A DNA stretch of 64,000 nucleotides from contig OZ022591.1 of NCBI GenBank assembly GCA_963669155.1, forward strand, positions 7,082,851 through 7,146,850, written 5' to 3'. A program made the position numbers and the translations under genes. Shown here in pieces: positions 6,813 through 53,000 of this stretch. The notes beneath the pieces were generated by a model that did not search any database, was not told where the DNA came from, and worked only from the letters and a program-made list of their open reading frames with translations. The stretch's first letter is position 1. Every line of letters starts with the position of its first letter. The DNA comes from Arbacia lixula. Lineage: Eukaryota; Echinodermata; Echinoidea; Arbacioida; Arbaciidae.

Positions 6813-9800
6813 ACTCACACACAGCAGGGAAACTTTGCATTTGCAGAATAACAATATCTGCACTTAGGTTTTTAAGTTAAAGCAGGTAGATGTTAGAACT
6901 GGAGTCAGCACGAAGCATAATTTATTCCTATACCAGTCGCGTTCACTGATAACACAATAGAATATTTGACGCATTTGGTTCTTTGATCCAGTGACGACCA
7001 CCGCCAAATATGCAAAGCGAATTTTGGATGCATTTAGAGGATTATATATTTTGTATGCGCAGAAAATTTCAGAACCACTTCATGAACTGAAGTGCATGTG
7101 CAGTAGTAGTACATCTTATAAAGATACGATTCTGTGTATTTCAGATTATATTGTTGCTTCGTTTTGGGGATAAAAGGAGAATACTGGAGAAAACATGCCA
7201 AAGAAATGCCTCCATATCGCACATTAAGCAATGATATTTCATTAGAGATATCTTGTAAATCGTTTATTGAGTGTTTTATCTTCCATGGAAACAAGCTCAA
7301 TTTCGTGTCCGGAGGTGTCCGAAAAAGTTACGGACCAAATTCTTTCTCCCATTTTTCCAAAATTTACCTTCGCTCACCCCAAAATTAATTCACAGTGTGT
7401 GTAAAAAAAATCACCTACGAGCTCCCAGCGAAGGCTGAACGGTTGACATATTTCTCAAAACAGATTTTCTTTTGTTATTCAGAGGAAGGCACTACCTAAT
7501 TAGAAATACAACGAATTGTTTAAAACACCTGAATGTCTTGAATTTTTATGAGGCGGCGGTCATCATAGATCAAAGGAAATCTATCCGAGCACAGTCCATT
7601 CATGATAGGTCCATGGTTAAAGTTTAAAGGGCACCATTTTCAAAAGAAAAGAGCTTAAAGTTGATTGGTAGAGGAATTCTACCTCATTCATTCGTACCTA
7701 ATGATGTTGACAAATGTCATGCATGGGTGATCACATCTAAAAATATATAATGGTAAGATGTATTTTTATCCTCAAAGTTTCAATGTTATCATAAAGAAAC
7801 ATTGTATTGTGGCATATCGGCATTACCATGATTCACTATAGTTTCTGAGTTCGGCTACAGTGATGTCATGAATATTCTGTGGATTGTCCAAGGAGAATTG
7901 CAATATCTATTTTCGCAATAATCAAGTTCTACATGTATGCTCTTTATGGATGTAAATAATTATCTTTTTAGTTAATCTGACTAGTTATTTAACATTTAAA
8001 GGTGTAGAAATGTTAAAGTTTGTTGATCACGTTTTCTTTTAAGATAATCCCTTTTTTATGAAAACACCAGTTATCAGTAAGAGAAGTATTCCTAATTGGC
8101 CAAAGTTTATGTTTTTGTTTCCTTCCCTATTAAGCAAAATATACAGTAAACAAGTGTGAATTGAACAAGAAATGGAATTCTGCAGATATTCACAAATATT
8201 CAACTGAGAGTGATTTTATGAAAATGGGCACAGATCTTAAAGTAGACATTCAAAACACTACTTATACTTTATGAAATCTCAAAGGAAGTTCATGCCGACC
8301 CCAGTAATTACAACTTCATACATCACAAAAAAGATTAGTACAAAATAAAGTGAGAAAAATTCCATATTGTTTTCCATTTCAAAAACCTCCCGAACCTCCG
8401 CCGAAAATCAGTGAAATTTGTGACGTCACAGAAGGGTTTAGTCTACCACTGGCAGATGATGTGTCATAGATAAAGCATTATGGCCAAAAGGGCTGTTGTC
8501 GCTAGTGAAAAACAGTTAAATGTACTTCAAATGTAGCCAAATGTGGTACTACTGGAAAAAGAAGATGTCTCTGTAACCAGCTATTTCAGGCTGTGTACTA
8601 ATGTACGGAATGCGATGACACTTGCTTTTTAAAACTAAATTCTTATCCTTTTAGCGAATGTTCCTCAGCAGGGTTCAGAGGGACCTTTTTCTTTCCAGAC
8701 ATTCGAGACAAATGCACATATATTGCTTGTTTGAGCCATGACATGTACAGTAACCTGCTGGTTGTAGAATGGTCCATTCTGTGACGTCAGTTAGAACATT
8801 GCCGACTTTCCCCAAATTCCACCAAAGTGGCTCTCTTTTTTGTGGCCTTTGTAATCTCCGAGCTCCTAACATAATCACAAAACAGAATTTGGGCATATTT
8901 ATATAATTTCCTTTGAATGTCTACTTCAAGGAAGCCTTTATAACTTCCAAGATCTGATGCCAAATTGTGTTCCAATGCTGCTCCCAAACTACACCTCATT
9001 CTGCACAATGTTGCATGGAAATACCTGTCAACTTTCACATCATGCTATTAGAATTAACTGCATGTGACTTTTGTTGATTTTTGGACAGCAATGATTGACA
9101 TACATGTATATGACTTTTGTTGGACAGCACCGATTAGAACTACCGGTGTGACTATTATTGAACAGCACTGATTAGAACTACCGGTATCGGGGTGATTATT
9201 ATTGGACAGCACTGATTACAACCACCTATGTGACTTTTGTTGGGCAGCACTGATTAGAACCACCTGTGTGACTTTTGTTGGACAACACTGATTTGAACTA
9301 CCTGTGTGACTTTTGTTGGACAGCATTGATTTGAACTATCTGTGTGACTTTTGTTGGACAGCCCTGATTAGAACTACTGGTGTGACTTTTGTTGGACAGC
9401 CCTAATCAGAACTACTGGTGTGACTTTTTTGGATAGCACTGATTTGAACTACCTGTGTGACTTTTATTGGACAGCCCTGATTAGAACCACCTGTGTGACT
9501 TTTGTTGGACAACACTGATTTGAACTACCTGTGTGACTTTTGTTGGACAGCACTGACTAAAATTATCTGTGTGACTTTTGTTGGACAGCACTGAGTACTG
9601 CCTGTGTGACTTTTGCTGGACAACATCAATTAGAATTACCTGTGTGACATTTACTGAACAGCATTGATTAGAACTGCCTGTGTGACTTTTGTTGGACAGC
9701 ATTAGTCTAAACTACCTGTGTGACTTTTGTTGGACAGCATTGATTTTAAACTATCTGTGTGACTTTTGTCGCACAGCCCTGATTAGAACTACCGGTGTGA

Positions 9801-12800
9801 CTTTTGTTTGATAGCACTGATTAGAACTATCTGTGTGACTTTTGCTGGACAGCCCTGATTATAGAACCACCTGTGTGACTTTTGTTGGACAGCACTAATT
9901 TGAACTACCTGTGTGACTTTTGTTGGACAGCATTGATTTGAACTACCTGTGTGATTTTTGTTGGACAGCCCTGATTAGAACTACCGGTGTGACTTTTGTT
10001 GGATAGCACTGATTGCAACTATCTGTGTGACTTTTGTTGGACAGCACTAATTTGAACTACCTGTGTGACTTTTGTTGGACAGCATTGATTTTAACTACCC
10101 GTGTGTCTTTTGTTGGACAGCATTGATTTAAACTATCTGTGTGACTTTTGTTGGACAGCCTTGATTAGAACCACCTGTGTGACTTTTGTTTGACAGCCCT
10201 GATGTGAACTACCTGTGTGACTTTTGTTAGACAGCATTGATTTGAACTACCTGTGTGACTTTTGTTGGACAGCATTGATTTGAACTACCTGTGTGACTTT
10301 TGTTGGACAGCACTGACTAAAATTATCTGTGTGACTTTTTTGGGAAATCACCGACTAGAATTATCTTTCTGACTTGTTGGACAGCACTGATTATAATTAC
10401 CTGTGTGACTTTTGTTGAACAGCACTGATTTGAACTACCTGTGTGACTTTTGCTGGACAGCCCTGATTAGAACCACCTGTGTGACTTTTGTTGGACAGCA
10501 CTAATTTGAACTATCTGTGTGACTTTTGTTGGACAGCATTGATTTGAACTACCTGTGTGATTTTTGTTGGACAGCCCTGATTAGAACTACCGGTGTGACT
10601 TTTGTTGGATAGCACTGATTGCAACTATCTGTGTGACTTTTGTTGGACAGCACTAATTTGAACTACCTGTGTGACTTTTGTTGGACAGCATTGATTTTAA
10701 CTACCCGTGTGACTTTTGTTGGACAGCATTGATTTAAACTATCTGTGTGACTTTTGTTGGACAGCCTTGATTAGAACCACCTGTGTGACTTTTGTTGGAC
10801 AGCCCTGATGTGAACTACCTGTGTGACTTTTGTTAGACAGCATTGATTTGAACTACCTGTGTGACTTTTGTTGGACAGCATTGATTTGAACTACCTGTGT
10901 GACTTTTGTTGGACAGCACTGACCAAAATTATCTGTGTGACTTTTTTGGGAAATCACCGACTAGAATTATCTTTCTGACTTGTTGGACAGCACTGATTAG
11001 AATTACCTGTGTGACTTTTGTTGAACAGCACTGATTTGAACTACCTGTGTGACTTTTGTTAGACAGCATTGATTTGAACTACCTGTGTGACTTTTGTTGG
11101 ACAGCATTGATTTGAACTACCTGTGTGACTTTTGTTGGACAGCACTGACTAAAATTATCTGTGTGACTTTTTTGGGAAATCATCGACTAGAATTATCTTT
11201 CTGACTTGTTGGACAGCACTGATTAGAATTACCTGTGTGACTTTTGTTGAACAGCACTGATAAGAACTGCCTGTGTGACTTGTGTTAGAAGGCACAATCT
11301 GTGTGACTTTTGTTGGACAGCACTGGTTATAATCACTTATGTAAGTCTTTTGTTTTCATTCCATAGATGATCATGACCTGTATTCAAGTTCAGAAAAAGA
11401 GTACAAATGCATAAATATGTGACCCTAGCACTATATATTTTTTATTTTGTTTTGCAGAGATATGCCGCGTGAAAGAGGGAGACGGGTAGTCGTAGATTAT
11501 GTAAAAGATTACATCAAGAAAGAATGTGATCCACCATGGATAAAGGAACATTACATTAACAAGGAGAAAGGTAAACATTTGAAAATATGCTTCAGGTACC
11601 TACAGAGAATTGTATACAAATAGCTCTGTGTCTTTCAAAAAACGGTGATAACTGTCCCTCCCGAAGTATACGGAATTTAATATTCTCCTGATCGAAGGAT
11701 ATGTTCTCAATATGGGCACTGTACCTACAAGTTCCTTTGAAATGCCAAAGAATATACTTTCAGATCAGTTGGGCTTTTTGCTCTGTTGCTATGGGGACCT
11801 TGAGTCATTCTTGGGGCAAGTGAAAGGCAAGAATATTTTATACTGTATAAGTGTGTCTTCACCAGCTTGAGCTTGAAAAATAGCGCACTAATTTGGGATC
11901 TGAGAATTAGCCCAATCAGAAATAGCGAGCTATTTTGCAGTGAAGACGCAAATAGCGCGTTATTTCAATCGAAAAATAAACCATCAAATCTTGGGCTTAT
12001 TTTCAAAATAGCGAGCTAATTCCAATGTCAGCGCGTACAACTGGTGTTGCAAAAACTGGGTCTGCGCGTGCAACAGTGTGCGCACTCGTTTACGCCTATG
12101 TGACCATGAAGTCAGAATAGGTATAAGCGTTATTCATATTATGGATGCATTAGTATGTACCTGCATACACCTACATACACGCGGATCAAATTTTAAACCG
12201 CATACACATTCCTCTGAACTGCGCTTGCGCCAGTTTCGGGCTTAAACTGAAGCTGGAGCTGGTGAAGACGGGATCGCAAACCGTTAGCTGACTTCGGGCT
12301 AATTTCTCCTCTCCCAAATTAGAGACCTAGTGATCACTTTTCCTGTTGGTCTGTTAGTCTGTTGGTCTGTTGGTCTGTTACAAAAATGTTAGTGTTTTTT
12401 TAACTTGCTCTCATTTCTTTTTTTTCCTGCATCAATTGTGATCACACTCGGTACAAATGATCCTTAGGTAATGCCACATGTGTCTTCATGAAGCTGATGG
12501 GGTCAAAAGTCATCTAGGGGTCAAAAGGTCAAATGATATGAGGCCATTTGCATTATTTTTTCTCAAAGTTTTTGTTTGACTTGCTTTCATTTCTTTATTT
12601 CTGCATCAATTGTGATCACACTTGGTACAAATGATCCTTGGGTAATACCACATGTGTCTTTTCATGAGGCTGATGGGGTCAAAGGTCATCTAGGGGTTAA
12701 AGGGTTTGAAAAAAAATATTTGAAAAAAAAAAAAACACTTTATCGATTGCGAAATTAGGCAAGACTTGTGGTTCGCGAACCACCTTGTTTTATTATGCAT

Positions 12801-18800: not shown

Positions 18801-21800
18801 CCAGTGCTGTCCAACAAAACTCACACAGGTAGTTCTAGTAAGTGCTGTTCAACAATAGTCGCACAGATTATTCTAATCAGTGATGTCCAACTAGAATTCT
18901 AGTCAGTGCTATCCAGCAGAGGTCACACAGGTTTTGTGTATAGTTTTGATTTCTCCTATACGGAGGGCCTGGAAAATCAATTTTTAATCCCCCAAATGAT
19001 TCCATATATTTTTGATAATGAATTAGATAAATAAGCATATAATTTAAAGTTCCAAGCAAATTAAAAGTTCACATGATGTCCTACATTCCGTAGAATTGCC
19101 CATATGTTATTATTATTATTTGAGAAGGTTGCACAAATTCTGGCTTCATCAGGATGCCACATACATGTATATGTAGTTAACCTTTTCATTACCTGTGTTA
19201 TTGTTGGACAGCATGGATTAGAATTATCTGTGTGACCTTTGTTGGACAACATTGATTAGAACTGCCTGTTTGACTTTTCTTAGAGAGCACTTATTAAAAT
19301 TATCTGTGTGGCTTTTGTTGGACAGAACTGCTTAGAATTATCTGTGTGACTTTTGCTGAACAACATTCATTAGAGCTGTGTGGCTTTTGTTGGACATCAC
19401 TGAGAAGAATTATCTGTGAAACATTTGTTAGACAACATTGATTAGAACTTACTGTATGACTTTTGATGGACAGAACTGCATACAATTATCTGTGTGACTT
19501 TGGTTGGACAACATTGATTAGAACTACCTGTTCGACTTGTTTTAGACAGCACTAACTAGAATTATTTGTGTGAATTTTGTTGGACAGCACTGATTAGAAA
19601 TACTTGTGTGACTTTTGTTGGGCAACACTGAGTAGAATTGTCTGTGTGACTTTTGTTGGACGACATTAATTAGAAATATCTGTGTGACTTTTGTTGGACA
19701 ACATTAATTAGAACTGCCTGTGTGACTTTTGTTGGACAGCACTTATTATTTGTGTGAATTTTGTTGGACAGCACTGATTAGAATTATCTGTGTGACTTTT
19801 GTTGGACAACATTGATTAGAAGTACCTGACTAAATTATCTGTGAGACTTTTCGTGAAATACCTGTGTGTATTTTGTTAAAAAGTTATGCTCTCATCTGTA
19901 AAGGATATTCTCTCCTTCTGCTCATCAGGTCAATCCATATTTGTTCTTGTGTGAATAAATATTATGGCCCATATTCTGAAGTCCGGTATAAGTAATTTTA
20001 AACCTGAACTCTGGTCTAAGTGTGTTTTAAGTCAGGTCTAAGTAGCGACTTAGTACGGTTAGACACGGTGTCTATATTTCTGTTTCTGAAGTCAGGTTTA
20101 GTTAAACCTAGGTTTAAGTGTGGTCTAACTTCCCATATGTGTGTGTAATAAGTAAAACCAGACTTTAAACTAGGTGTAGGGGTAGTTTAAGTCCGGTTTA
20201 ACTCTGCGATGTGATACGAACGTTTTTGTGCGATGGAATCTCTATGGGAATTGCGTGTTTAAGAGACAATCGCAAACTCGCATTCGCGTACACTGTACTG
20301 CATGCAAGCTATTGTGATGATTGTATTTTAGTGTATCAACAATTTATGCAGAGGTGGAAATTTAAATCAAGAATTGAACAGTGTTATTTCAATAAAAGCA
20401 GAGGGACGGAATTGTAGTTATTTCTCAGAAATAGTGTGCTCACCTTCTCGAAAATAGTGTGCTCTCTATATTACAATGCCATTAGGTAAGTCAACACCAC
20501 AAAGTCTAGATCTAAATTAGATCGTAAGGTTAGACAATATCTGAGTCTGACGTAGTCTCGTAACTTTTTTTTAATAGTCCGTCTAACTTATAACTTAGAC
20601 TCCAGTCTAACTTACACTTACTTATACACAGAGTTATATATCTAAGTTAGTTAGATCTAGTCTAATAACAAGCTATGTTAGACCATAATTTTCAAGCATT
20701 TTATTTTCAGTTGAGCCAATGAAGATCTTATCTAATGTTAGACAGTCAGACCAGTCATTGCCCTAGTATCCCTAGTTTAGGCTTGTTATTAATAATAAAA
20801 AAAAAACATGTAGAGGATCTAGACCTAGCTAGTTAGGCCTAACATCGTGCACCACTGCAGGCATTAGCATTGCCATTGGCATGTAAATTAGATCTAATCT
20901 AACACAGTAACAGTTAGATCTAACGATCTAACTTTTAGATCCGTGTTAGATTTAGTTTTAAAAATCTGATGTTTGTCCCTCGCCCCTTTGCTCAACTCTA
21001 CTAGATCTAGTTTTTGAGCAAGTCATAGATCTACTCATAAACCTATAGATCTAGATCTTCTACTTCTAGTGTTACTTATAGTAATACTAGCTTAGTCTGT
21101 GTTCTCGTTTCATACCCAATTCTAAAAGTAACACTTGCAATAATTTTTTTGTCAAAAGAAAAATGGATACGCTACAATAAATTGTCAATATAACATGGAG
21201 ACCAAACCATGGAGACCAATTTGTTTCAAAAGCAAATTTGTTCAAACGTTATACCAAGTAATACTTTTGATATAAGGCAATGAACTCTTAACAAAAACAT
21301 TTAATACTGTTTAAGATATTTTTAGCCCAAGCTAGACGTAGCCCAAGCTAACTAGTATTTTGTAGTAACAGACATAGGCAATAGGGAACGAAGAACTAGA
21401 CTACTAGCCTATTTATTTATTTTTTTTTTACTCACAGTTTCAGCCTCACCCTTATACCTAACTTCAGAATACAGGCCTATGAGTTTTACAAGATATTAAA
21501 TGATTGGTTTTTGTGGTTTTGGTTGACCGGAGCAGCAAACCGGAACTATACGTTGTAAGCGCCCTTTCAGGTACCGGTATTGCTGCCTGGGTGATATTGC
21601 TTGATATTGGCTGTATTCTGTATGCTGTCCAACAAACATATATGAAAACTTAATCAGTGTTGTCCAACAAAAGTCACACAGGTAGTTCTAATCAATGCTG
21701 TTTAACCAAAGTTACACAGGTAATTCTTACAATGCTGTCCAACACACTTCATGCAGGTGATTTTGATGAACTAACAAAAGTCATGGGTTACAACTTAATC

Positions 21801-27867: not shown

Positions 27868-30800
27868 ATAGCAGGGTGACTAGTAGATCGCCTTATTGTG
27901 AAGGTTTGGTGTAAGTTAGCTAGCTGCTATCATGGCTGCAGATGTTCCCAAGTAATTTTAATTATCACAGTTAATAATAAAAACAAGAGAAAAGAAAGAC
28001 ATATGAACCATTAGTGTCCCATAAGTGTCACGTACACATATATGCCTATCAGTTGATCTCCATGTGATCAAACATCTTTACTCTGTGCTTGGATGAATTT
28101 TCTTATTATTGTAATATAAAGATTCAAATTAAGTCTATTTCTTGCAAACTTTAAAACCTTTAACCTTGGATGGATTTGAACATCATCTCATCAGTTCTTC
28201 TCAATGTGTCCAATCATCTTCCCATCACATTCACTTGGAACTTGCTTTGTTTTTGTAAAATGAAACACCACATGCTTTGGCCAGTGCTGGCACACTGCAG
28301 TAACCTTTGACCTCCGGACAGATGCGACCCAAATTTTACACTGCTCACCGTTTTACAATGCAAAGTTTGTAGCGAATTTATCAAGAAATGGTTGAAATTC
28401 AACAGATAGGGTGCAGAAAGAAAGATAGGCAACCCATAAACATGATGCCTATAGCCACTTTGCAGCATGGAGATATTAACATTTTAAAAATTTAAAGTGA
28501 TTTAAAAAGTACGTACCTCAAACTCTTTCCGCAGTTTCTCTGGCGGTCCAAAGAGAAGGAAGAGGTTCATTCCATACATGATGAGCAGAGCTACGCAGTA
28601 TGGCCCTGGGCAAGTGAGGGAGACAGACAAAATGAGAGGATAGCTTCAAGCGTCCTAGAAATGGGCAAAACTCCCCCTTTTTAATTCAAATGTGCAATTC
28701 ATGTCAGTAAAAGCACGAAAATTAGAACTAGAGCAATTCGACTGCCACGCAGTCTATAAATATGCCTCCGCCTCTTTGCTATTCTCAGAAAATGTGTAAG
28801 TTTGGTGGGCAATGTACCATTGCTCCCATGTGAAATGAAAATATCACATTATATTTTTCCAAGTTTAGCCTAGTTTGGCAATGTTCAATGACTTTTGAAC
28901 TCTTACTTCTTTGACTTCCAATCTGACCAGTCTGTCTAAATCCATCCTTGTATCAAGTTTGTTTAAAATTAGCCAATTTTGGGGTGAAGTTCATTGACCT
29001 TTGACCTTTCAGGAATTTTACCCAAACTTCACCAGTCTACCTCCATGAAGTAATACATCTCTGTACTATGTTTGGTTTGAATTGGATCATTAGTATTGGA
29101 TTCAATGTGAAAAATATCTATTTGGGGGCAATTTTTAGCCAATTCTGGCAAAGTTCATTGACCTTTGATCTCTGACCTTTGAGAAATTTCACCAAAAATG
29201 TCATGCAGTCCTACCCCCAAGTAGTGATCCATCTTTGCACCATGTTTGGTTGGTATTGCATCATTGGATTTTGATACATTTTGAAAATTATCACTTTGGG
29301 GGCAATTATTAGCTAATTTTTGACAAAGTTCATTGACCTTTGACCTTTGAACTCTCAGGAATTTTACCCAAACTTTCACCAGTCTACCTCCATAAAGTGA
29401 TGCATCTCTGTACCATGTTTGGTTAGAATTGCGCCATTGGATTTGGATTTGGGTTCATTGTGAAAAATATCAATTTTTGCAAAGTTCATTGACCTTTGAC
29501 CTCTGACCTTCCAGCCATTTCACCAACAATGTCACCAATCTAATCCCAAAAAGTGATCCATCGTTTCACTACGTCTGGTTGGAATTGCACCAATGGATTT
29601 GGATTTATTGTGAAAATTTACAAGTTTGGGGCAATTTCTAGCCAATTTTGGCAAAGTTCATTGACCTTTGACCTCTGAACTTTCAGGAATTTACCAAATA
29701 TGTCACCAGTCTATCCCCAAGTAGTGATCTATCTTTGTACCATGTTTAATGAGAATTGCATCCTTGGATTTGGATTTATTGTGAAAAGGGTCAATTTTTG
29801 GCAAATTTTCACAAATTTCATTGACCTTTGACCTCTGACCTTTCAGGAATTTTACCAAAAATGTTACCAGTCTATCTCCAGGTAGTGATCCATCTTTGTA
29901 CCATGTTTAATGAGAATTGCATCCTTGAATTTGGATTTATTGTGAAAAAGGTCAATTTTTGGCAATTTTTACAGAGTTCATTGACCTTTGACCTTTGACC
30001 TCAATCAGATTTGACCCCAATTTTACACACTTCATTAGTTTCATGCAATACATACATGTACCAAGTTTGAAGCAAATCTGCTAAACGGTTCTCAAGATAT
30101 TGCCAAAAAGGATTCGGGACGGACGGACGGACGGACGGACGGACGGACGGACAACCCGAAAACATGATGCCTCCGGCCACTTCGTGGCGGAGGCATAAAA
30201 ACACATTGGCACAAATTCATCTCCAAATAGGCAGAAACAAAATTTAGGATTGTTTAGCATTGTCAAAGTTGAACTAGAGCAATTCGACTGCTGTGCAGTC
30301 GATAAATATGCCTCCGCCTCTTTGCTAGCTCTATTTAGATTTATTCTCAGAAAACCTGTTTGGTGGGCAATGAACCATTTAATTCCTATGTGAAATGAAA
30401 ATATCATATTCTGTTTTTCCATGTTCGGCCAAGTTTACAATATTCATTGACCTCTGACTTCCAATCTAATCAGTCCATCTAAAGCCATCCTTGTATCAAG
30501 TTTGTTTAAAATCAGCCAATCTGGGGGTAAAGTTCATTGACCTTTGACCTTTCAGAAATTTTAACCACACTTTCACTCGTGTACCTCCATGAAGTGATAC
30601 ATCTCTGTACCATGTTTGGTTAAAATTGAACCAATGGTTTTGCATTCAATGTGAAAAATTTTAAATTTGGCTCAATTTTTAGCCAATTTTGGCATAGTTC
30701 ATTGACCTTTGACCTCTGACCTTTGAGAATTTTCACCAAAAATATCATCAGTCGACCCCCAAGTAGTGATCCATCTTTATATTATGTTTGGTTTGTATTG

Positions 30801-32034
30801 CACAATTGGATCTTGATTTATTTTGAAAAATATTACTTTGGGGGCAATTTTTTAGCTATTTTTGGCAAAGTTCATTGACCTTTGACCTTTCAGGAATTAT
30901 ACCCAAACTTCCATCAATCTACCTCCATGAAGTGATACATCTCTGTACTATGTTTAATTAGAATTGCACCATTGAATTTGGGTCTATTGTGAAAAATATA
31001 AATTTGGGGCCAATTTTTAGAAAATTGTTGCAAAGTTCATTGATCTTTGACCTCTGGCCTTCCAGGAATTTCACCAAAAAATGTCACCAGTCTATTCCCA
31101 AGAAGTGATCCATCTTAGTACCATGTTTCATGAGAATTTCATTTTTGGATTTAGTTTTATGGTGAAAAATGTGAAGTTTGGGGCAGTTTTTAGCCAATTT
31201 TGGCAAAGTTCATTGACCTTTCACATCTGAACTTTCAGGAATTTTATCACAAATGTCAGCAGTCTATTCCAAAGTAGTGATCTATCTTTGTAGCATGTTT
31301 CATGAGAATTGCATGCTTGGATTTGGATTTATTGTGGAAAATATAAAGCTTGGGGCAGTTTTTAGCCAATTTTGCCAAAGTTCATTGACCTTTCACCTCT
31401 GAACTTTCAGGAAATTTATCAAAAATGTCACCAGTCTATTCCCAAGTAGTGATCCATCTTTGTATCATGTTTCATGAGAATTGGATCCTTGGATTTGGCC
31501 TTATTGTGAAAAAGGTCAATTTGGGGCAATTTTTCACAAAGTTCATTGACCTTTGACCTTTGACCTCAATCAGAACTGACCCCTATTTTACACACTTCAT
31601 TGGTTTTATGCAATACACACATGTACCAGGTTTGAAGCCAATCTGGTTAACGGTTCTCAAGATATTGCCTAAACGGATTCGGGACGTACGTACGGACGGA
31701 CGGACGGACGGACAACCCGAAAACATAATGCCTCAGGCCACTTCGTGGCGGAGGCATAAAAATCAGTGAAATGAGGCAGTAATGTTGCTGTTGAGCACAG
31801 TTCTTTATTTTTTGTATGCACAAAGGCAGAATTGTATTCAATGAACAATGATGATGCGTACAAATAGGCTGAGACTCAATTTACATTAAAAGGTCATTAT
31901 TGCATTGTATATTTACAGGGTAATAGTAAAATACTTGCACAGTGCCCATGTCTTGTAATTCAGATATCAAGCAGACAAGTCACTCTCACTCTCTGTTGAA
32001 ATCCTGTTTTTTATATTCATGTCTCTCTCCCCCC

Positions 32035-35000: not shown

Positions 35001-38000
35001 GTCCAACCTTATATTTTCAGTTTAGGTAAATCATCGATGTGGAAATCTAGAGGCGTTGGATGAAAACTACCTGGAATAATGTTGACTCGAGACATGAAAC
35101 AAAGAGGAGCGTGAGAAGACAGTCTTGTGAAAATGATACCTTTCATGATTATGACCCTCTTAACAAGACGGTCGCAACCCAGAAAGTGAATGGTGACAAA
35201 AATTGTCACCATCACAAGCATGCACTCATGTGCTCCTCATTGTATCATGTCAGGAATATAAACTAGACAACGTCATTTGAAAAGCGGAATTAAATAAAAC
35301 TGTTGTAAACTAAGTGTTTACTCACGTCTTACAGTTAAAGGTCAGGGTTAAATTCAGAATAAGGTATTGGAATTGGACATCAAGGGAGAAAAAGCATGTG
35401 GATCAACAAAAAAGAATAATATCCCATGAGGCAAATAGTGACAAAAGACGTCTTCCCTACAAGCATACTTCATACGCTGCTATCCAATTCAAGATTCTTC
35501 AAGCTTGAAATAGGCAGATCGCCCCGATTGTACATCTCATGGCAGATACTGGAAATTGACATTTGAAGTGCACATTCCAGGCTTCTTGGTTTTATCCTTG
35601 GCATCATTAAACTAACAAACGGTCTATCCCATAATACTCACTTCATAATGGACGGGATGCAGGAGATATCGTGAATATTTGATGTGAACGGCGCCGCCAC
35701 GGACGCCTCTGCCTCCGAGAGTGCCACGCCAACATGAGCAAGCTTGAGGGCGCCACAGTCGTTGGCTCCGTCTCCGCACATCCCCACGTGGTACTCCAGC
35801 AGCTGCAGGATCTCAATGAGCTGCATCTTCTGGTCAGGAGACATGCGGGCAAAGACCTGGGCATGGACCGCCAGCTGGGGATGATAACAATGATAAAGAT
35901 GACAAGAAGAAGAAGAGGAAGTCAAAGGAGGAGAAGGAGTAGGAGATGTATCTCAATGAACTGCATCTTCTGGTCTTCAGACATGTAGGCAAAGACCTGG
36001 GCATGGACGGCCAGCTGGGGATGATAACAATGATAAAGATGACAAGAAGAAGAAGAGGAAGTCAAAGGAGGAGAAGGAGTAGGAGATGTATCTCAATGAA
36101 CTGCATCTTCTGGTCTTCAGACATGTAGGCAAAGACCTGGGCATGGACGGCCAGCTGGGGATGATAACAATGATAATGATTAAAAGAAGAAGAAGTCAAA
36201 GGAGGAGAAGGAGTAGGAGGTGTATCTCAATGAACTGCATCTTCTGGTCAGGAGACATGCGGGCAAAGACCTGGGCATGGACCGCCAGCTGCAGAAAAAA
36301 AACAAGCATCATCATGATGACAAGAAGAACAGGAAGAGGAAGAGGAGGAAGAAGAAAGAGAGGAATCAGGAGAAAAAGAGGAAGGAGGAGAAGGAAAACA
36401 AGAAAAAATAAGGAGAAGAAAAGAAAAGCAGAAAAAGGAGAAGAGGAAGAGGAGGAAAGATGATCAAAAGAAGAAAGGAAAGGAGAAGATAAGGTAGAAG
36501 AAAAAGGAGAAGAAGAAGAGGGGGAAGAAGAAGAAAAGAATGAAAATGAAGAGGAAGGAGGATAAGAAGAGAAGGAAGAGGCAGGAACAGAAAAGGATGA
36601 AGAGAAAGAAGAAGAAAAGGGAAAAAAAAGAGGGAGAAGAAAGACCCCTTACATGATTTTAAACATGAAAGTTATTCACCTTTTTCATGAGTTCTGGTTC
36701 CAACTCCCTGATGAGTCCAAACGTCTTACCATCCATGGCAAACGTTGTTCCGTTCATATTCCCCACATCAATCATCACATCATTGGACGTCTGCAGGGGT
36801 AAAGACAATGAGATCTAAATAATGCTTTCATTTCTAAATACCAGAGCAATCACAGTCATTCCAATGTTACAAGTATGCTCTATATTCCATTTTCTCCATC
36901 CTTCAGATTTTCTCTGAGCAGCTCTTGTCAAACTACTCATCAAAGAATAATTCAACTGACTACCAGGACTAATCAAGGTGCATTTTAACTCGACTATACA
37001 GTAATTCATAGTCTCACTTCATATAGCATGATCAGATTAAGATTCAGGGGGGTGTTTCTTCAAGCAGTTTGTAAGTTACGAACGACTTAATGCATGCCTG
37101 GTGACCTATTTTTTTTGCTAAATGAGATTTGTTCCTTTTTCAATATAGTGGGAGTGAATTTCCTAAAATCGTAATCAAATTTGACATATTATGTACTCTG
37201 TATTCAGATGCTTGCTAACATTGAGAATTTTAATCTGCAAACATCAGATTCCAACAACTTAAGCTGCATGGTCACTACTCCCATTAGGTCAGATTCCCAT
37301 TTCGCATAAATACAAAAGTGAATATACACACTGAAGAGTTCAGGTTATGGTAAAAGGTAAGGATGAGATTCAGGTAAGGGAATTTGACAAAATGTGAGTG
37401 AATCATATAAGTGTTCAGAGTACACAGCCATTGAAGTTTGAATCATGATTAGGGTAAGGTATGACAAAATGGACAAAACAGGCGTAACAAACATGTCAAC
37501 GTACCACAGGCTGCATGGCAGTGTTCACATTACTTTCAGTCTTTTCTTTCCCTTCATTCTTGTTCTCCTGAAACTCCACCGTCTGATACTGGACATCCAG
37601 TTTATCCCCGTTCAGCGGCGCCGCGGCAGAGACATGCATGACCTTCTTTCCAGGCTTAATGACGCTGCATTTCCGGGCGACGTTCACTGCTGTGAGAATG
37701 TTGTCACCTGTAAATTAGATGAAAGCTATTATTACCCTGTTTGAACAAGATTCAATATAGAAATAAATAAATGAAATTACTTTGATTGTGCATACTTGGA
37801 AGGCAATCATTTTACAAGCAACTTCCCCTCCATACTCCTACCTCTTGCTCTACCCTACTGTTCTCTCTTCTTTTCTTCACCTTCCTATTCTTGCGCTCTA
37901 GTCTCCTCCATCATTCATTCTTGCATCCTGACCCAACCCCACCCCACCCCAATCCATCTCTTCATGTCATTCCACCACAATGTTCGCTCACCACTTCCAT

Positions 38001-41000
38001 TTCTATCCTCTCCATCCTACTCATGAGTGATCATGAGGTTCGTAACGATAACGATGACATTACTTACACATATGAGGACACATGGATTTTTTAATTCTGC
38101 CTGTTTTGTACTTGTTGTCCGGTTGATTTCTGTGTTTTTGGAGCCTGAGTGTGATGTTATAATGCTTTGATTTGTTTTTTTTGTGACAAGAAGAGTCATT
38201 AAATGGGTGCATTTTTGTGACAAGTGCAGGCATTTTGCCTGGAAAAGGTTGGAGCTTGTATCTGCTTTTTTGGACATTTAGTACTGCGGTCCCATGTATG
38301 TGATTCTGCGTATATGTGTTTGAACCCTTATCAAACGCTAGTGCACTGCATTCACTCCACACTGGGAAGCTTAACAGTGATCTTATATTGTGCTGTTCCA
38401 CTATTCATCTAGGATTAATCTGGGATTAGCCCTTAACTCTGTTCATCCCTGCTCAACACAACATAATGGCGGGCAGTGCTGGAACCCGTACTACAAAGAG
38501 CCTTATAAAAGAAGCACTGATGGATGATGAAGTGTTTTCTGTCATCATCACATCCATTGGAACAGCCTTTGATCCAAAGTTCCAGCAGCTCAACGAAAAA
38601 CTAGACAGACAAGATGGTACTATACACGAGCTCCAATGCACAAGTATTTTACTTTTTGTAACCTCCTATTCCATTATCTGCATTTATATGATTAATACAT
38701 GACATGTATTTTATTGTTGTTTTTATGATTTGGAAATAAATGAACTGAACCTGGTAAAGTTCCTCGATAGCTGACAGTTTGTAACTTCTTCTTGTTCCTT
38801 CTTCATAATCCTCTCCTCTCCTTTCATTTATATCTCCAATGTCCTTCCTTCCTTCTCTCATCCACTCCCTCTCCTTCATTCCATCTACCTCTCCCTTCTA
38901 CTCACCCTCAATCATCAAGGTTCAAATCTTAACAAATTGAGGTTCCTCAATAGCAGTTTATTCATCAACTTGGTCTCTTTGTTTTCCTATCCTCTCCTTC
39001 CATTAATCCTTCCTTCCCTCTCTCTACTTCCTCTCATTTTTACCTTCTACTCACTCCCTAGTGAGTCCTAATGGTCCTAATGTAAGCTTGAGGAAGTTCC
39101 TAAATAATTGAGTTTTTTCATTCAACCTATTTCTTTGTTTCCTTTCCTCTCCTTCTATCTATCCATTAAAATTTCCTCGATTCCTTCACTCTCTCTTTCC
39201 TCCCATCTCTACCTTCTACTCACTAGTAATCATCATGGTCCTAATGTTAGCTTGAGGAAGTTCCTAAATAACTCAGTTTTTTCATTCAACCTATTTCTTT
39301 GTTTCCTTTCCTCTCCTTCTATCTATCTATCTATCCAATTTCCTCCATTTCTTCCCTCTCTCTTTCCTCCCATCTCTACCTTCTACTCACCAGTAATCAT
39401 TGTGGTCCTAATGTTAGCTTGAGGAAGTTCCTAAATAACTGATGGTTTATTCATTCAACCTATACCTCTGTTTCCTTTCCTCTCCTTCTATCTATCCATC
39501 CCATTTCCTCCATTCCTTCACTCTCTCTTTCCTTCCATCTCTACCTTCTACTCACCAGTAATCATCATGGTCCTAATGTTAGCCTCGTGAAGCTCCTCAA
39601 TGGCAGACACCGTCTTCTCCTTCAGCTTGTTCTGCATGATCATCAGCCCCAAGAACTGCAGATCGCTCTCAACAGAATCTCTGCATAACAAACATGGAGA
39701 AAGATCAAAGTAAATCGATCCTTTTTTTTTTGTAAGTCTAATGTTTATCTTTTTCTATACCAGTTTTCTATAAAAAAAAATTCTGTGTATTTTTTGTGCA
39801 ATTCACATGCAAGTCATGCGCAATTCAGCTATATGCTGCTAACCATGCTTTGATTTTTAATGAACAATTTTAATTGTATCAAATTGAATAAAATTTAAGT
39901 GAAATAAAATTTAATTGTTTATTTCAGTCATCAAAACCTTTGAAAATGGCTCCAATATAAATCAAAACATTGAAAGAGTTCACATGTGCACAATCATGAC
40001 TAGTGGCAGAGACAGAAAATCAGGACCAGTTTTACACATAACTAAATCTTGGACTTTGTGACCAGTATTCAAGCATCCTCCTGCACAAATTTGTGAGGTA
40101 TTGACATTATCTCTTGTGTCTGTCCCTATGATCATTTTACTTCAACTTTTGAAATTTGACATAAATGGTAATAAATCATAATTCACCATCACACATAACC
40201 ATATCTCTCATCAGAATATGTGCTTGTCCCTATGATCATTTTACTTCAACTTTTGAAATTTGACATAAATGGTAATAAATCATAATTCACCATCACACAT
40301 AACCATATCTCTCATCAGAATATGTGCTTGTCCCTATGATCATTTTACTTCAACTTTTGAAATTTGACATAAATGGTAATAAATCATAATTCACCATCAC
40401 ACATAACCATATCTCTCATCAGAATATGTGCTTGTCCCTACGATCATTTTACTTCTACTTTTGAAATTTGACATTAATGGTAATAAATCATAATTCACCA
40501 TCACACATAACCATTGTATCATAAAAGTTAATAAAATCCTGTAAAATATATGTTGAGTTATCCCATAAATGAGATGCATAAACATTTTAGATCATTGATG
40601 TGCAATCTACTTAAGCTCTCACAAGCTCCAATGAAGTATATGTATACCATACATTTCGGTCAGGGGGTTAAAAATCAATTGAATAGGCCGACTGCACACC
40701 TAAACTTCTGGAAAATGGGCAAAATATAATCCTGCGTCACGGTCTGAATTATAGCTTTTGCCAGAAAACCGACATCCACGTTCCAATTTCTTTTTACCTC
40801 TGTATCTTCTGAGCCTTATGCCACTGCAAGCTGGGGTCCAGTGGTTTCCATGCCAACGCAAGAACTCGGAATCCATCCGCTGTGTATGAGCTCAGTGTGT
40901 CCTCAAAGTTATTTGGAACTGGGAGGAATAAAATGTGATGAAATGTTCAATTGTAATGTGATGACAATGAATGCAATCATGGATTTTTCGTTGTCTCTCA

Positions 41001-47000: not shown

Positions 47001-50000
47001 TATTTTTTGTTTATATGAGCAAAAAGTATCACTCATCACGCATAGAAAACACAGCTTCTAGCTCAGAAAACTGGATATTCAACACACTTTATCAGAGTGA
47101 TCTTCTCCATGTCCTCCATGGGTGCGATCATTCTGGATCATTTCTTTGATCTTCCTCAAACTCCCATCAATGTGCTTGGACAGTAGTTACATTATTCTCC
47201 TTTTAAAGGGATAGTTCACCCTGACATTAAATTAGCTATAATAAAAGCAGAATCATAAAAGAAATATATTAGTTAAAGTTTGATGAAAATCCGTCGAAGG
47301 ATAAGAAAGTATCATTAATAAAGTTTTGATTTTGGAACGTCACGTGCGAAGTGCTCTCCAATATATTTTGTACTAAATTTTTTGAAAATGTTGATTTGCA
47401 TCATTTTACCTGTGCATTTGATACATCATTAGAAACTCATTTTTACACTCATACCTCTATGAAAAAAAAATCATTTAAAACTAAAAAAAAATACAATTAT
47501 GGAATCATACAGCACACAACATATGAGAGAGCACCTCGCATTAATGTCACAAAAAACAAAATTTGAAAAGATCATAACTTTCTTATCCTTTTACGGATTT
47601 CTGTCAAACCTTCACCAATATGTTTCTTTCATGATTCTGTTTTTATTAAAAACCAACTGAACATCAGGGTGAACTATCCCTTTGAGGACAGTTTATTTAC
47701 AACTCTCACCCTCCATTTGAAGTCTCCTGTACACCTAGCAGATCCAGGCCGTCTTCCGTCAGGGTGCCCGTCTGTGTGACAAACAATGCAATGTAATGAC
47801 AGCAATCATCAAGAGCCCTGGTTCATATATACCACGTATCTGCAACACTTGTTGCAATTTTGCCAATACATTACTGGTATCTGTGTTTTTGATTGAGAAT
47901 CACTGAACTAATGCCGGATTGGCTTCCTCCTTTTTCCGCCTATTTTGCAGATCAAGACCTAGTAATAATACCGCAATATAGCGATAAGCGAATCTTATAA
48001 ACTGCGTCTGCAAAATAGCCGTGAATGTTGCGCCTTGTGCATTGTGCTCTGGCATGTGTTTCGCTACTTGCAACACTCGTATGGCTTAGCGTAACTTGTC
48101 ACCACCACCTGTTTGCCCTAGCTACGAGTGTGGGGGTGGTCCAGCTGTCCAAAAGACCAAAATGTTATGTTTTTTGGTGTTTATGAACGGTGTTTACAGA
48201 GGGTCACTGGAAACTTTCTTACCAACATGCATCGGTAATAATAGCGGTATTATCATGATTATGGTAAATGAACGGAGCTACAGAGATACAGTAGGTGGTA
48301 TTGTCACTTACATTCTATCATTTCCCTCATACCTAGTTTGTTTCATTGACTTTTGTATGTCAGCATTTAACTAACTCACAACCATGATATATACAAAAAG
48401 TAGTGCATAGTTGCATGTATGTTACACCTAACATGTCAATTAGACAGCTCTTCAAGAAAACGTGGCCCCAAAATAGCGGGACAAACCTGAGGTGTAAACA
48501 GTTGTACTACAGTAACTTTTACTACTGTTTTTGGATGTTATATTTGAGGCACCTGAATATGTCAACCCTTCATCAACTTTTGTCACTTCACTCATTGAAT
48601 AGAAACAGACAAATGAAACAGGCAGCTACCTTTTCAAAGCAGGTGATATGCAAGATTAAACATAGATATAAAAACAAAAAGATACAAAATACAACGAGCC
48701 CAATCGTATAGAGAGTTTGCTTAAATAACATCAATCAAATTACAATAAAATCTATCATTCAATCAAATGAGATTAACTCTTAACATGACATGGCCGATTT
48801 TTGCCCAAATGATACACACAACTCGCATACAGAAGCAGTGCATCTGGAATAGGAAGAGTTTGAACAATGAGAAAAAAAGGACAGTCACCTTATCGAAGCA
48901 AACGATGTCCAGGGTCCCACAGAGGTTGATGCGCTGCGGGCTGATGCAGAAGATGCCCCTCCTCTTGAGGCGGAACTGGGCATAGACCATGCCGATGGTC
49001 AGTGAGGCAGGGAGGGCTGGGGGAACGGCGATGGTGATGATGTCAAGGGATTTCAGGACAATCTCGGTCACCGCAGTCTAAGGAAACAATTCAACGGAAA
49101 ATCAAAACTCATTAAAGAAAGAACAGTGCTTTCAGGACAATCTCCTTCACCGCAGTCTAAAGAACAATTCAATGAAAAATCAAACTCACTAAAGAAAGAA
49201 CAGTGCTTTCAGGACAATCTCCTTCACAGCAGTCTGAAGAACAATTCAATGAAAAATCAAACTCATTAAAGAAAGAACAGTCCTTTCAGGACAATCTCCT
49301 TCGTCACCGCAGTCTAAAAAAAAACAAATAAATGAAATAAAGAATAGACAAATACAATGGTGATGATATCAAGGGCTTTCACAACAATCTCTTGAACAGC
49401 AGTCTCAGGAAACAATTCAATGAATATTAAAACTCAATGAAAAATGAATATGCAAATTTAAAAAAAACCTAAAGAAACACAATATATGAATATTCATATC
49501 AACATTTATCATAAAAGAAACCTATTTCATGACTAAGAATGGACACATATCGTCAACACAGAGTTCAATTTTGCACTCTGAAATGATATGCACAAAATAT
49601 CAGGATCTCTGCGCAGGACTAATTTATATGCTACCACAATGGAGTACCAAAGGGATTTTGCTTATTCATTTTGTAAACACAATTATGATAGTTCATATGG
49701 AATAGGAAATTTGACACTGAGGTGGTCATAAAATGATGGGTTGGTTTTCAGGTGCTTATTCAACAGTTGTTAAATCTACACCTCCATTGTAAATTCAGGC
49801 CTTTATATCATCCTTTTTCAAATGATTAACGGCCTAGTGAAAGAGCTGGATCAACTTACCCCTTGGAGGGCCAGAACGACCACAGTGTATATGAAGCCAA
49901 TCAGAGCTGGAAAAGAAAAAAATATATATGACATGTTTGTGAAAATCACTTAATGTGACTGAGAAGGAACAAAGAAAACCATAATCTAAACAGTGCTTTC

Positions 50001-53000
50001 ACAGTAGAGTGTACACACATTTAAGGCTGGAGTAAATAAATGAGACACAAAAGTAAACAATATAATTCTGTGACAAATGCACTAGTTTTGTCCACTCATT
50101 TTGGAACGAAATCAAAAAGTTTGCATCTCATATTAGTTGAGGCTTAGTATGTGTACTGTATTACACCCTTGTAGGGAATACAAACAACTTATTTGTAAGG
50201 AAGATGAAGAATTTAGTCAAAATGATGTTTTGACAACTTGTGTGGCATTGTGGAGAAATGGAAGTGGAAGTGCACTCACTGAAGAAGGCCAGGATGCCAA
50301 TGAAGAGAAGAGGGTCACGGAAGAGTTTGATTTTAGCAAGTTAGGAAGATTGGTTAATTACACAATGTGTGTAAGAGAGGATTTAGCAGAATATAATCAT
50401 AGGAGAGCCATCCCCCAGTAATAACAATTTAGTAAAAAATGATGTTTGACAGCTTTTGTGGCACAATGATTGAATTGGATTCTTGAGAAATGGAACAGCA
50501 CTCACCGAAGAAGGCCAGGATGCCAACGAAGAGCAGAGAGTCGCGGAAGAGCTTGATCTCAGTCGGCATAGGATAGAGAATAGAACGCACCATGATGCCC
50601 TTGGCTGTGGAGAAACCTGTGGACGAGAATGGAAGGCACATTACATCAGGACATGTTTTCGATCCTCTTCACATTCTGGCACAATAATGTTCAATATCTC
50701 ACTCTTCCTTCTCCTTTCTTCACCCCAGAAGTGGGCCAATTATCCAAAAGAAAACTATCCAAAAGAATACAACATGGTGTTACCGAAAGTATTACTATTT
50801 TCTAAATAGTACATATTAATGTTCAATATGTTGTAATTGAAATATGTGAAATAAAGGAAACAAATAAACAAAATCAAATAAAATCTTTCTGAAGTCCCAG
50901 CTATTCAATTGTAGAGTTGCTATAAATCCGCACAAGCAACAATCCACATTCACTGATCCATTTCAATTGACACTTTCTTGTGATACAGATTTAAATTTAC
51001 ACCAAACATAGTTTTTGTGCTAAGGGCACAGTAAATTCAACGAGATGGCATACAAAAACATATATGAATATATAACTTATATTCATTTATACATATATAC
51101 AAACTACATTTGAATATATGATATGAATCTATACATAAACAAAATTCATATGAATATACGTTATAATGTACATTTATCTATTTATTGTAACCACTTTGTA
51201 TCATACAAATATGTCAATGGTTGAATTAAAATTACAAAGATAAATAAGAGATAATACTAAAAACAAAACGATTATGAAAGTGATTGTACTTCTTACCTGT
51301 GAGAACAACCACAGCTTTGACTTTCTCATCAGCGTAGAATCTGGTCTGGATGACGTGCGTACCACAGAACAGGGTGTGTCTCTTGTGGTCGTCCATGGAG
51401 TAGTAGAGTTCTCCACTCTCTGGGTTAGGTAGCGGGGTCTTAGTGATCGGCACGCTCTCCCCTAGCGGACAAAAGGCGAAAGGTCAAATCAGTGACAAAG
51501 GCACACAGGGTTCAGGGAAATTTAACCCCTGCAAAGCAAAGAAGACCCCCTGTGAACCCCCCCCCCCCAAAAAAAAAACAAAAAAACAAAAAAAAAGAAA
51601 GAAAGAAAAATAAATAAATAAAAAAAAAAAATTAAATAAATAAATAAAAAACAATAAAAAATAATAAACAAAAATAAACAAACAAAATAAATAAATAAAT
51701 AAAAAAAATTACAAAAAAAAAATAATAAGAAAAAAAAAAAAAAAAAAAAAAAAAAATAAATAAATATATAAATAAATAAAAATAAGAAGAAGAAGAAGAA
51801 GAAAAATCTTCTTTGGTAACATGCATAACATGGCTCAGGCTGTTCCTTTTCAGATGTCGGGGCCTTGTGTTATGACGATTTGCAATTGATCTGAATCGAT
51901 TGTAAGTTCAATCCCCTATATGTGATGTACAGAGTTAGGACTGCAAGTCAAGTTGCGATTAATCTCAATTCTTTAAAAGATGGGGCCCAGGCTAAAAAAA
52001 GTGGCCCTTGTCCATCCCAACCCCCCTTTCCTTCCCATGAGATTGATGGGTAGGGATGAATAGTAAAGGCATAATTAGCATTCAAATAGCAGATAGTGTC
52101 GCTGCTCATCAACCAGTAGATGAAGGTTCAATTCCTTTCTGTCTTTGATGGATCAATCTCTTCACTCCACAAAGTACCAGTTAAACAACACAAAAAATGC
52201 TAAAGATTATCCGCCACTCACCAGTGAGGGAGCTCTCATTGACGATGCAGTTGCCGGCGACCAGGACCGCATCACATGTCATGGTGCAGCCGCTGGCTGG
52301 GATGATGATGACATCACCAGGGACCAGCTTGTCCTCCCAGATCATCTCCAGCTCTAGAGGGAGACAAACAAACAAAGCTCAAAGAGAATGAAACCCTGAA
52401 CAGGAATTGAATTCTCTGTTTGAGAATAAAGTCAAACAATTATAAACAGATAGATCCATAAATTAATCATCATATCATTTGAAAATGTTATAACTTCTAT
52501 TAAATGTTAACTTTGAATGTGTTAACAAGTCCTATAATGACTATTTGAGTCTGTCTAGAGTAAAGGGAATTTTTGTGGCACAACTGAATCATTTGAAAAT
52601 TATGACCACCTTGCACCACCAAAATATGACAGAGTGTTCAAGTAATTTCCTCCAAAATAACTTCAGCTAAAATCCTGCTCTGAATGTTCATTATTATATA
52701 TTTCTAAACTAAGCCTGTACATGATTGTAATATCACAGTGGTAAAGTTATCAACGTCCCGTTATCAACGTGCTGTGGCAAATTTGTACAGGGCAAATTTT
52801 CTGAAGCGTACAAAACCTTGTAAAGTGCAAATCAATACATTTCTTTGATATTTCATCATCATTGGCTGGCTTATTTAAGAGAAAAAAAGTGATTGGAATT
52901 TAAGAGATTTATGCAAATGTTAGAGTAAATGTAACAGAAATGTACCCATTACTGTAGACAGGCCCATTTCTTAGATGATTGAGATCAAACAATGTCTAAT

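Follow-up and report, generated by a model that had tools for sequence, protein, structure and literature searches.

Tandem repeats lying over exon-intron boundaries have been described in amphioxus under the name of mirages, in Adh3, the globin genes BflGb6 and BflGb9, PGBD5 and troponin C (PMC3087553, PMC3902484), the original mirage paper being Canestro 2002, as cited in PMC3087553. The unit lengths given in these accounts are 10-72 bp for Adh3, 60 and 108 bp for PGBD5 (PMC3902484, which cites troponin C as a further case) and 150-160 bp for globin, the units of BflGb6 each joining an intron end to an exon start (PMC3087553). Splice signals are reported to be intact in many mirage units, and the internal units to be homogenised with the boundary units left out (PMC3087553, PMC3902484). 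RT-PCR suggested normal splicing in amphioxus, and mirages were proposed as a source of new introns (PMC3087553). Variable tandem repeats at exon-intron boundaries, with a mean unit of 30 bp, have also been described in human segmental duplications, where they have been tied to the formation of new introns, manual inspection leaving 27 intron modifications, and alter transcripts in some genes (PMC2812944). In the matter that it covers here, PMC10946897 bears on polypyrimidine tracts only. Among the matches listed for the open-licence literature, no title concerned exon-edge tandem repeats in an echinoderm.

The genome of the sea urchin Arbacia lixula has been assembled from PacBio HiFi reads into 607.91 Mb with 22 chromosome-scale scaffolds and a mitochondrial genome of 15,740 bp, published RNA-Seq from several individuals having been used and 200,894 CDS pieces annotated (PMC11310861). 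In the genome analysed here the mitochondrial contig carries, in order, cox1, tRNA-Arg, nad4L, cox2, tRNA-Lys, atp8, atp6 and cox3, with tRNA-Ser on the opposite strand (cox1 assigned by family match, the tRNAs by ARAGORN and the remaining genes by their protein sequences), an echinoderm arrangement. A cephalochordate host, as the amphioxus mirages might suggest, was rejected on this gene order; a GFP family search of the genome gave 0 matches, which by itself proves no absence. A sea star was likewise dropped, cox1 having no long ORF ahead of it. The window analysed here, a stretch of 64,000 nucleotides, carries on its minus strand, at about 34-64 kb, a gene for a P5B ATPase (ATP13A-like), an ion/polyamine pump. 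The identification rests on the GDGANDC exon, which resembles solved P5B ATPases (E about 1e-26), and on the joined reading frames, which align with polyamine-transporting ATPase 13A2 in nine stretches (E = 3e-119). With the help of splice signals and similarity at the protein level, 36 exon edges were mapped, 18 acceptors and 18 donors. Coordinates are collected in Table 1, in which, as in the text, extra copies of an exon edge are called decoys. A search of the 64-kb window for RNA families gave 0 matches at gathering thresholds. Other repeats are present in the window. A 38-bp satellite (TTGGACAGCACTGATTAGAACTACCTGTGTGACTTTTG and variants) reaches up to 58 copies and occurs in several blocks (9081-11286 and 19201-19828, also 18803-18891 and 21651-21744). 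Two blocks of repeats of about 160-175 bp (TTGACCTCTGACCTTTCAGG...) lie at 28994-30001 and 30537-31534, each followed by a GGAC microsatellite. Within the ATPase gene an intronic array at 40121-40514 (104 bp x 3.8 copies, 98% matches) touches no mapped exon edge.

Table 1. Exons, introns and copied exon edges of the P5B ATPase gene (positions in the window), with edge copies read by eye in other genes; a slash marks the splice site.
Feature	Position	Strand	Remarks
True GDGANDC exon, 233 nt, acceptor CATCCCCAG/CTGGCG	35642..35874	-	splice signals and protein similarity
Intron end of true GDGANDC exon	35875..35949	-	70/70 identical to intron end of decoy 3; 167-nt exact block at 140-bp shift
Decoy 3 (D3), 65 nt of exon start, AG intact	35950..36014	-	exon part 58/65 against true exon
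Intron end of decoy 3	36015..36089	-	exact repeat at 140-bp shift
Decoy 2 (D2), 65 nt of exon start, AG intact	36090..36154	-	exon part equal to that of decoy 3
Intron end of decoy 2	36155..36223	-	61/76 against true intron end
Decoy 1 (D1, outermost), 65 nt of exon start after TTTTTTTTCTGCAG	36224..36288	-	exon part 64/65 against true exon
805-bp intron upstream of GDGANDC exon, contains acceptor array	35875-36679	-	
Exon preceding GDGANDC exon, donor AAAAAG/GTGAAT	36680..36790	-	
Exon with duplicated donor edge	39556..39680	-	
Four donor-edge copies, units about 165 bp	38876..39555	-	GT at 39390, 39223, 39054, 38905
Exon TAVTEIVLK...FDK, second acceptor-edge case	48889..49077	-	edge at 49077
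Four acceptor-edge copies, 77-bp units and outer copy	49078..49432	-	exon starts 49403, 49313, 49233, 49156
Exon with duplicated donor edge	50506..50616	-	
One donor-edge copy, two-copy case with 226-bp unit	50261..50336	-	GT at 50279
Acceptor-edge copies in other genes	L010, L011, L013, L015		read by eye
Donor-edge copies in other genes	L009, L013, L021, L023, L025, L030, L035		read by eye

Four copies of the GDGANDC exon's acceptor edge form a tandem array at 35810-36291, which Tandem Repeats Finder reports with a period of 140, 3.5 copies and 93% matches. The repeated unit comprises about 70 nt of intron end and about 65 nt of exon start, and AG is present in all four acceptor copies. The first-pass annotation had described such a 140-bp array with four copies of the acceptor edge, three of them decoys that precede the true site in transcript order; the period and the located exon starts bear this out, the first exon bases at 36288, 36154 and 36014 (decoys) being reached before that at 35874 (true). 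Its further claim that the outermost decoy is nearest to the true exon holds for the exon half only. Over 65 nt of exon, D1 matches at 64 positions and D2 and D3, which are identical to each other and have six changes common to them alone, at 58; over the 70 nt of intron the order is reversed, with 53/78, 61/76 and 70/70 aligned columns matching for D1, D2 and D3. The annotation's proposal that the array grew by internal duplication agrees with the identical exon parts of D2 and D3, the six changes that are theirs alone and the exact 140-bp unit.

The stretch over which D2 and D3 are identical begins 22 nt upstream of the exon start and ends 145 nt downstream of it; between D3 and the true copy it takes in 162 nt upstream and 5 nt downstream of the exon start. 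This makes the newest duplication step an exact 140-bp shift and confines its breakpoint to 27 nt around the acceptor. On the simple reading of this mosaic, the last event would have doubled one unit consisting of an exon fragment and then an intron end. The exact 140-bp unit has 0 differences, where two average A. lixula alleles would show about 5-6; the chance of 140 identical bases between two such alleles is 0.008 at 3.47% heterozygosity and 0.002 at 4.40%. Because this chance is low, the last 140-bp step is probably younger than average alleles, and copy number may still be variable. In the middle decoys two codons of the exon are each altered at more than one base (36113-36122 in D2, 35973-35982 in D3), CGC to TAC and CCT to GAA. 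The latter yields GTCTGAAGAC, an imperfect inverted repeat, as from a possible template switch.

When the 1.5 kb around each of the 36 mapped edges was searched, four exons proved to have copies, in every case of one edge and not the other; two of these edges are acceptors and two donors, with 12 decoys in total. The 12 copies score 47-120, against at most 30 in shuffled sequence (30 dinucleotide shuffles per edge), and chance resemblance is excluded. The same kind of event had been claimed in the first-pass annotation for the exons at 39556, 48889 and 50506, and each does carry copies at one edge. The annotation had gone on to call chance unlikely on the strength of this recurrence; that part stands as regards chance resemblance, and an excess of events over chance is not established. 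The idea that recurrence marks this gene as special does not survive comparison with background, edges being in local repeats at 4/36 against 11.2% of non-exon bases in this gene, and at 15/136 against 10.0% elsewhere.

Splice signals in the decoys were scored with a weight matrix trained on the gene's own edges, a small set of 18 acceptors and 18 donors, which in the GDGANDC array gives 10.8 to D1 and 5.4 each to D2, D3 and the true site. The last three have the same 20-nt intron context. At the other acceptor case, near 49.0 kb, three decoys (7.6, 5.1 and 3.0) score above the true site (0.1) and the fourth (-3.2) below it. Of four donor decoys near 39.6 kb, three were scored, with 11.4, 8.2 and 9.0 against a true 11.4, and the single decoy near 50.5 kb scores 4.1 against a true 7.2. 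From the true acceptor the GDGANDC exon is 233 nt long; from the decoys it would be 373, 513 or 647 nt, and with any of the three the extended exon meets an in-frame stop at its codon 31. When paired with the exon's normal other end, all 12 decoys in the gene give a stop in the exon's frame, which is the ordinary behaviour of intron sequence and no sign of function. Among the donor-like sites listed, none between decoy 1 and the true acceptor of the array at 35.8 kb scores above 3.5. In the 49.0-kb array, the decoy acceptor at 49233 is followed 44 nt on by a good donor, TTA/GTGAGT at 49189 (score 6.4), making a possible cassette exon.

The four duplicated edges have the anatomy described for amphioxus mirages. 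The GDGANDC array consists of tandem repeats spanning a boundary, and the unit lengths of 140, 77 and about 165 bp lie within the range, with the 226-bp case at 50506 being longer. The AG or GT dinucleotide is intact in 12/12 decoys, and the inner units are homogenised with the boundary unit left out, the exon parts of D2 and D3 being identical, the 140-bp unit exact and D1 different. The difference is one of range and not of anatomy, as the host here is a sea urchin, whereas the cases named as mirages in the cited accounts are all cephalochordate. Here the gene is a P5B ATPase and four exons of one gene are involved; in addition, a rate over many exons is measured here, whereas single genes are reported in those accounts. 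The human boundary repeats are likewise minisatellite-like and located at exon-intron boundaries, but as described they concern recently duplicated genes, picked for copy differences between paralogs, and transcripts change (PMC2812944), whereas the present units, of 77-226 bp, belong to a conserved gene for which no altered transcripts are known.

Two other processes that copy sequence at exons differ from what is seen here. Intron gain at AG/GT proto-splice sites, reported for potato RdRp and for Drosophila genes (PMC2891723, PMC4974935), likewise has tandem duplication making extra splice sites, but there an intron arises inside an exon, whereas here the duplicated sequence is the edge of an intron already in place, with no splitting of an exon; the true exon is intact, and a single existing intron contains the array. 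Mutually exclusive or otherwise duplicated exons also place tandem copies of exon sequence beside an exon. The copies here, unlike those, are partial, with about 65 of the exon's 233 nt and a single splice edge, show no donor-like site above 3.5 and lead to stops.

Duplication of edges was then compared with that of the surrounding sequence, a local repeat being taken as at least 40 bp with a partner within 2 kb. Within the gene span 4 of 36 edges (11.1%) are in local repeats, as are 3255 of 29069 non-exon bases (11.2%), a figure in which unmapped exons are counted as non-exon and to which the four edge arrays themselves contribute part; for exons with both edges mapped the value is 215/2503 bases (8.6%). 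A cruder simulation for this gene alone, in which 11 hand-picked unit lengths were set at random, expected 1.34 edge overlaps against the 4 observed, with P(at least 4) = 0.034. This mild excess is not borne out by a larger sample, and it carries the caveat that constrained true edges keep old copies recognisable for longer.

The wider sample was drawn from exon matches to the myosin head (PF00063, 73) and the P-type ATPase (PF00122, 16) outside this gene. Of these 89 matches 68 were usable, 59 of which had first been tested by another method. With match ends as a proxy for exon edges, 15 of 136 ends and 3 of 68 middles are in local repeats, as are 936/13185 coding bases (7.1%) and 21723/217066 other bases (10.0%), unmatched exons being counted among the latter. 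Counting overlapping stretches once leaves the other bases at 21370/214559 (10.0%), and leaving out scaffold C29 gives 14/132 ends, 2/66 middles and 10.3% of other bases. The rarer repeats in the middles of exon matches are as selection would leave.

Fourteen exon matches were read by eye, namely 13 flagged by the repeat count and one acceptor case (L010 19559391) that the other method had picked out. Edge copies are present in 10 of them, at four acceptor and seven donor edges (the weakest being the L013 donor and L025), and were not seen by eye in the other four (L010 19566485, L011 12108307, L024 5440879 and L031 14920664). The total read by eye is 11 of 136 ends, which drops to 10 distinct edges should L030 and L035 be one exon. 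They are probably two versions of one exon, and the unplaced scaffold C29 (L030, L029), which agrees with the C3 myosin gene (L035, L036) at about 89-97% across the principal aligned blocks, may represent a second haplotype retained in the assembly. The C3 and C29 versions of this donor-edge case agree throughout the 68 nt of true exon end, and their decoys differ at 5 positions, which would be in line with a lack of constraint on decoys, in one case only. In L024 (C10:5440879-5440986) a 35-nt piece inside a myosin P-loop exon is repeated 201 nt downstream (32/35), and the donor is not reached. Altogether about one in ten sampled exon edges carries a local repeat, and the P5B ATPase gene is not special. 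The GDGANDC array is one instance of a genome-wide condition, as far as two gene families show. Given the background rates, both here and in the 68 other exon matches, a mechanism particular to this gene is rejected.

Since edges are duplicated at about the rate of introns, they are most simply explained by local tandem duplication that is neutral. We put at roughly 0.83 the probability that the GDGANDC array is a mirage, a minisatellite-like tandem duplication over an intron-exon boundary whose decoys would be mostly neutral. Unequal exchange or replication slippage would have produced the units, this genome being rich in local duplications, and would have struck introns and exon edges alike. 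Copies of edges would be tolerated because the extra ones fall in introns; the innermost would head an intact exon and the others turn into intron. On general principles of splicing, the innermost acceptor would be the one mostly used, since of the four it lies closest to the donor of the exon and exon definition would favour the 233-nt exon, and occasional use of a decoy would be cleared by nonsense-mediated decay. Counted against this neutral account are the AG or GT kept by all 12 decoys, the P = 0.034 excess of edges in the gene and the altered transcripts that human boundary repeats cause in some genes (PMC2812944). Plain neutral drift also does not predict that D1 should have an exon half at 64/65 and an intron half at 53/78; its near-unchanged exon half, together with the strongest acceptor, could stem from a later exchange of sequence between it and the true exon, from chance across the 65 nt, from constraint or from real use.

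Real use would be expected if D1, with its strong polypyrimidine tract, served under some conditions as a regulatory poison acceptor, so that the stop at codon 31 and subsequent decay lower ATPase output. Its score of 10.8 against 5.4, its 64/65 exon half and the stop itself would all suit such a role, but a stop follows from every decoy in the gene, as intron sequence gives generally, and similar arrays occur in other genes at about the background rate; we regard this reading as very improbable. Equally little credit is due to a broader version of it, in which boundary minisatellites would be pervasive in sea urchin genes, at about one exon edge in ten, and some of the decoys that equal or exceed the true site in strength, D1 among them, would be spliced to a regulated extent and so adjust expression via early stops. 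A decoy fragment might instead combine with a nearby donor into a cassette exon, a step to a new exon or intron as proposed for the amphioxus globin genes (PMC3087553). Human boundary repeats can form new introns (PMC2812944), and decoy 49233 has its donor at 49189. Against this stands the GDGANDC array itself, where none of the donor-like sites listed from decoy 1 to the true acceptor exceeds 3.5, and we think it very doubtful. Slightly less probable again is an assembly artefact, in which collapsed or chained haplotypes would be rendered as tandem copies. Heterozygosity in A. lixula is high (3.47 and 4.40%, PMC11310861) and unplaced scaffold C29 resembles a second version of part of C3, but the PacBio HiFi reads behind the assembly (PMC11310861) should easily span 482 bp, the copies are of different ages in a mosaic structure, and the same structure is known in amphioxus.

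With the GDGANDC array read as a mirage, a structure named in amphioxus is now found in a second deuterostome group, at about the rate to be expected were local tandem duplication to strike edges just as it does intron. What was an oddity becomes a measurable background process that continually generates competing splice sites. One intron of the A. lixula gene offers four acceptors, three of them sharing a 20-nt context, so cDNA would show directly the choice made by distance or exon definition, and a single population would allow copy-number alleles to be set side by side. Reed and Maniatis in 1986 reportedly ran competition tests with duplicated splice sites, placing identical competing acceptors in one transcript. 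Unlike those constructs, the competing acceptors here are natural and not built, and they would provide a natural test of the cell's choice among near-identical splice sites.
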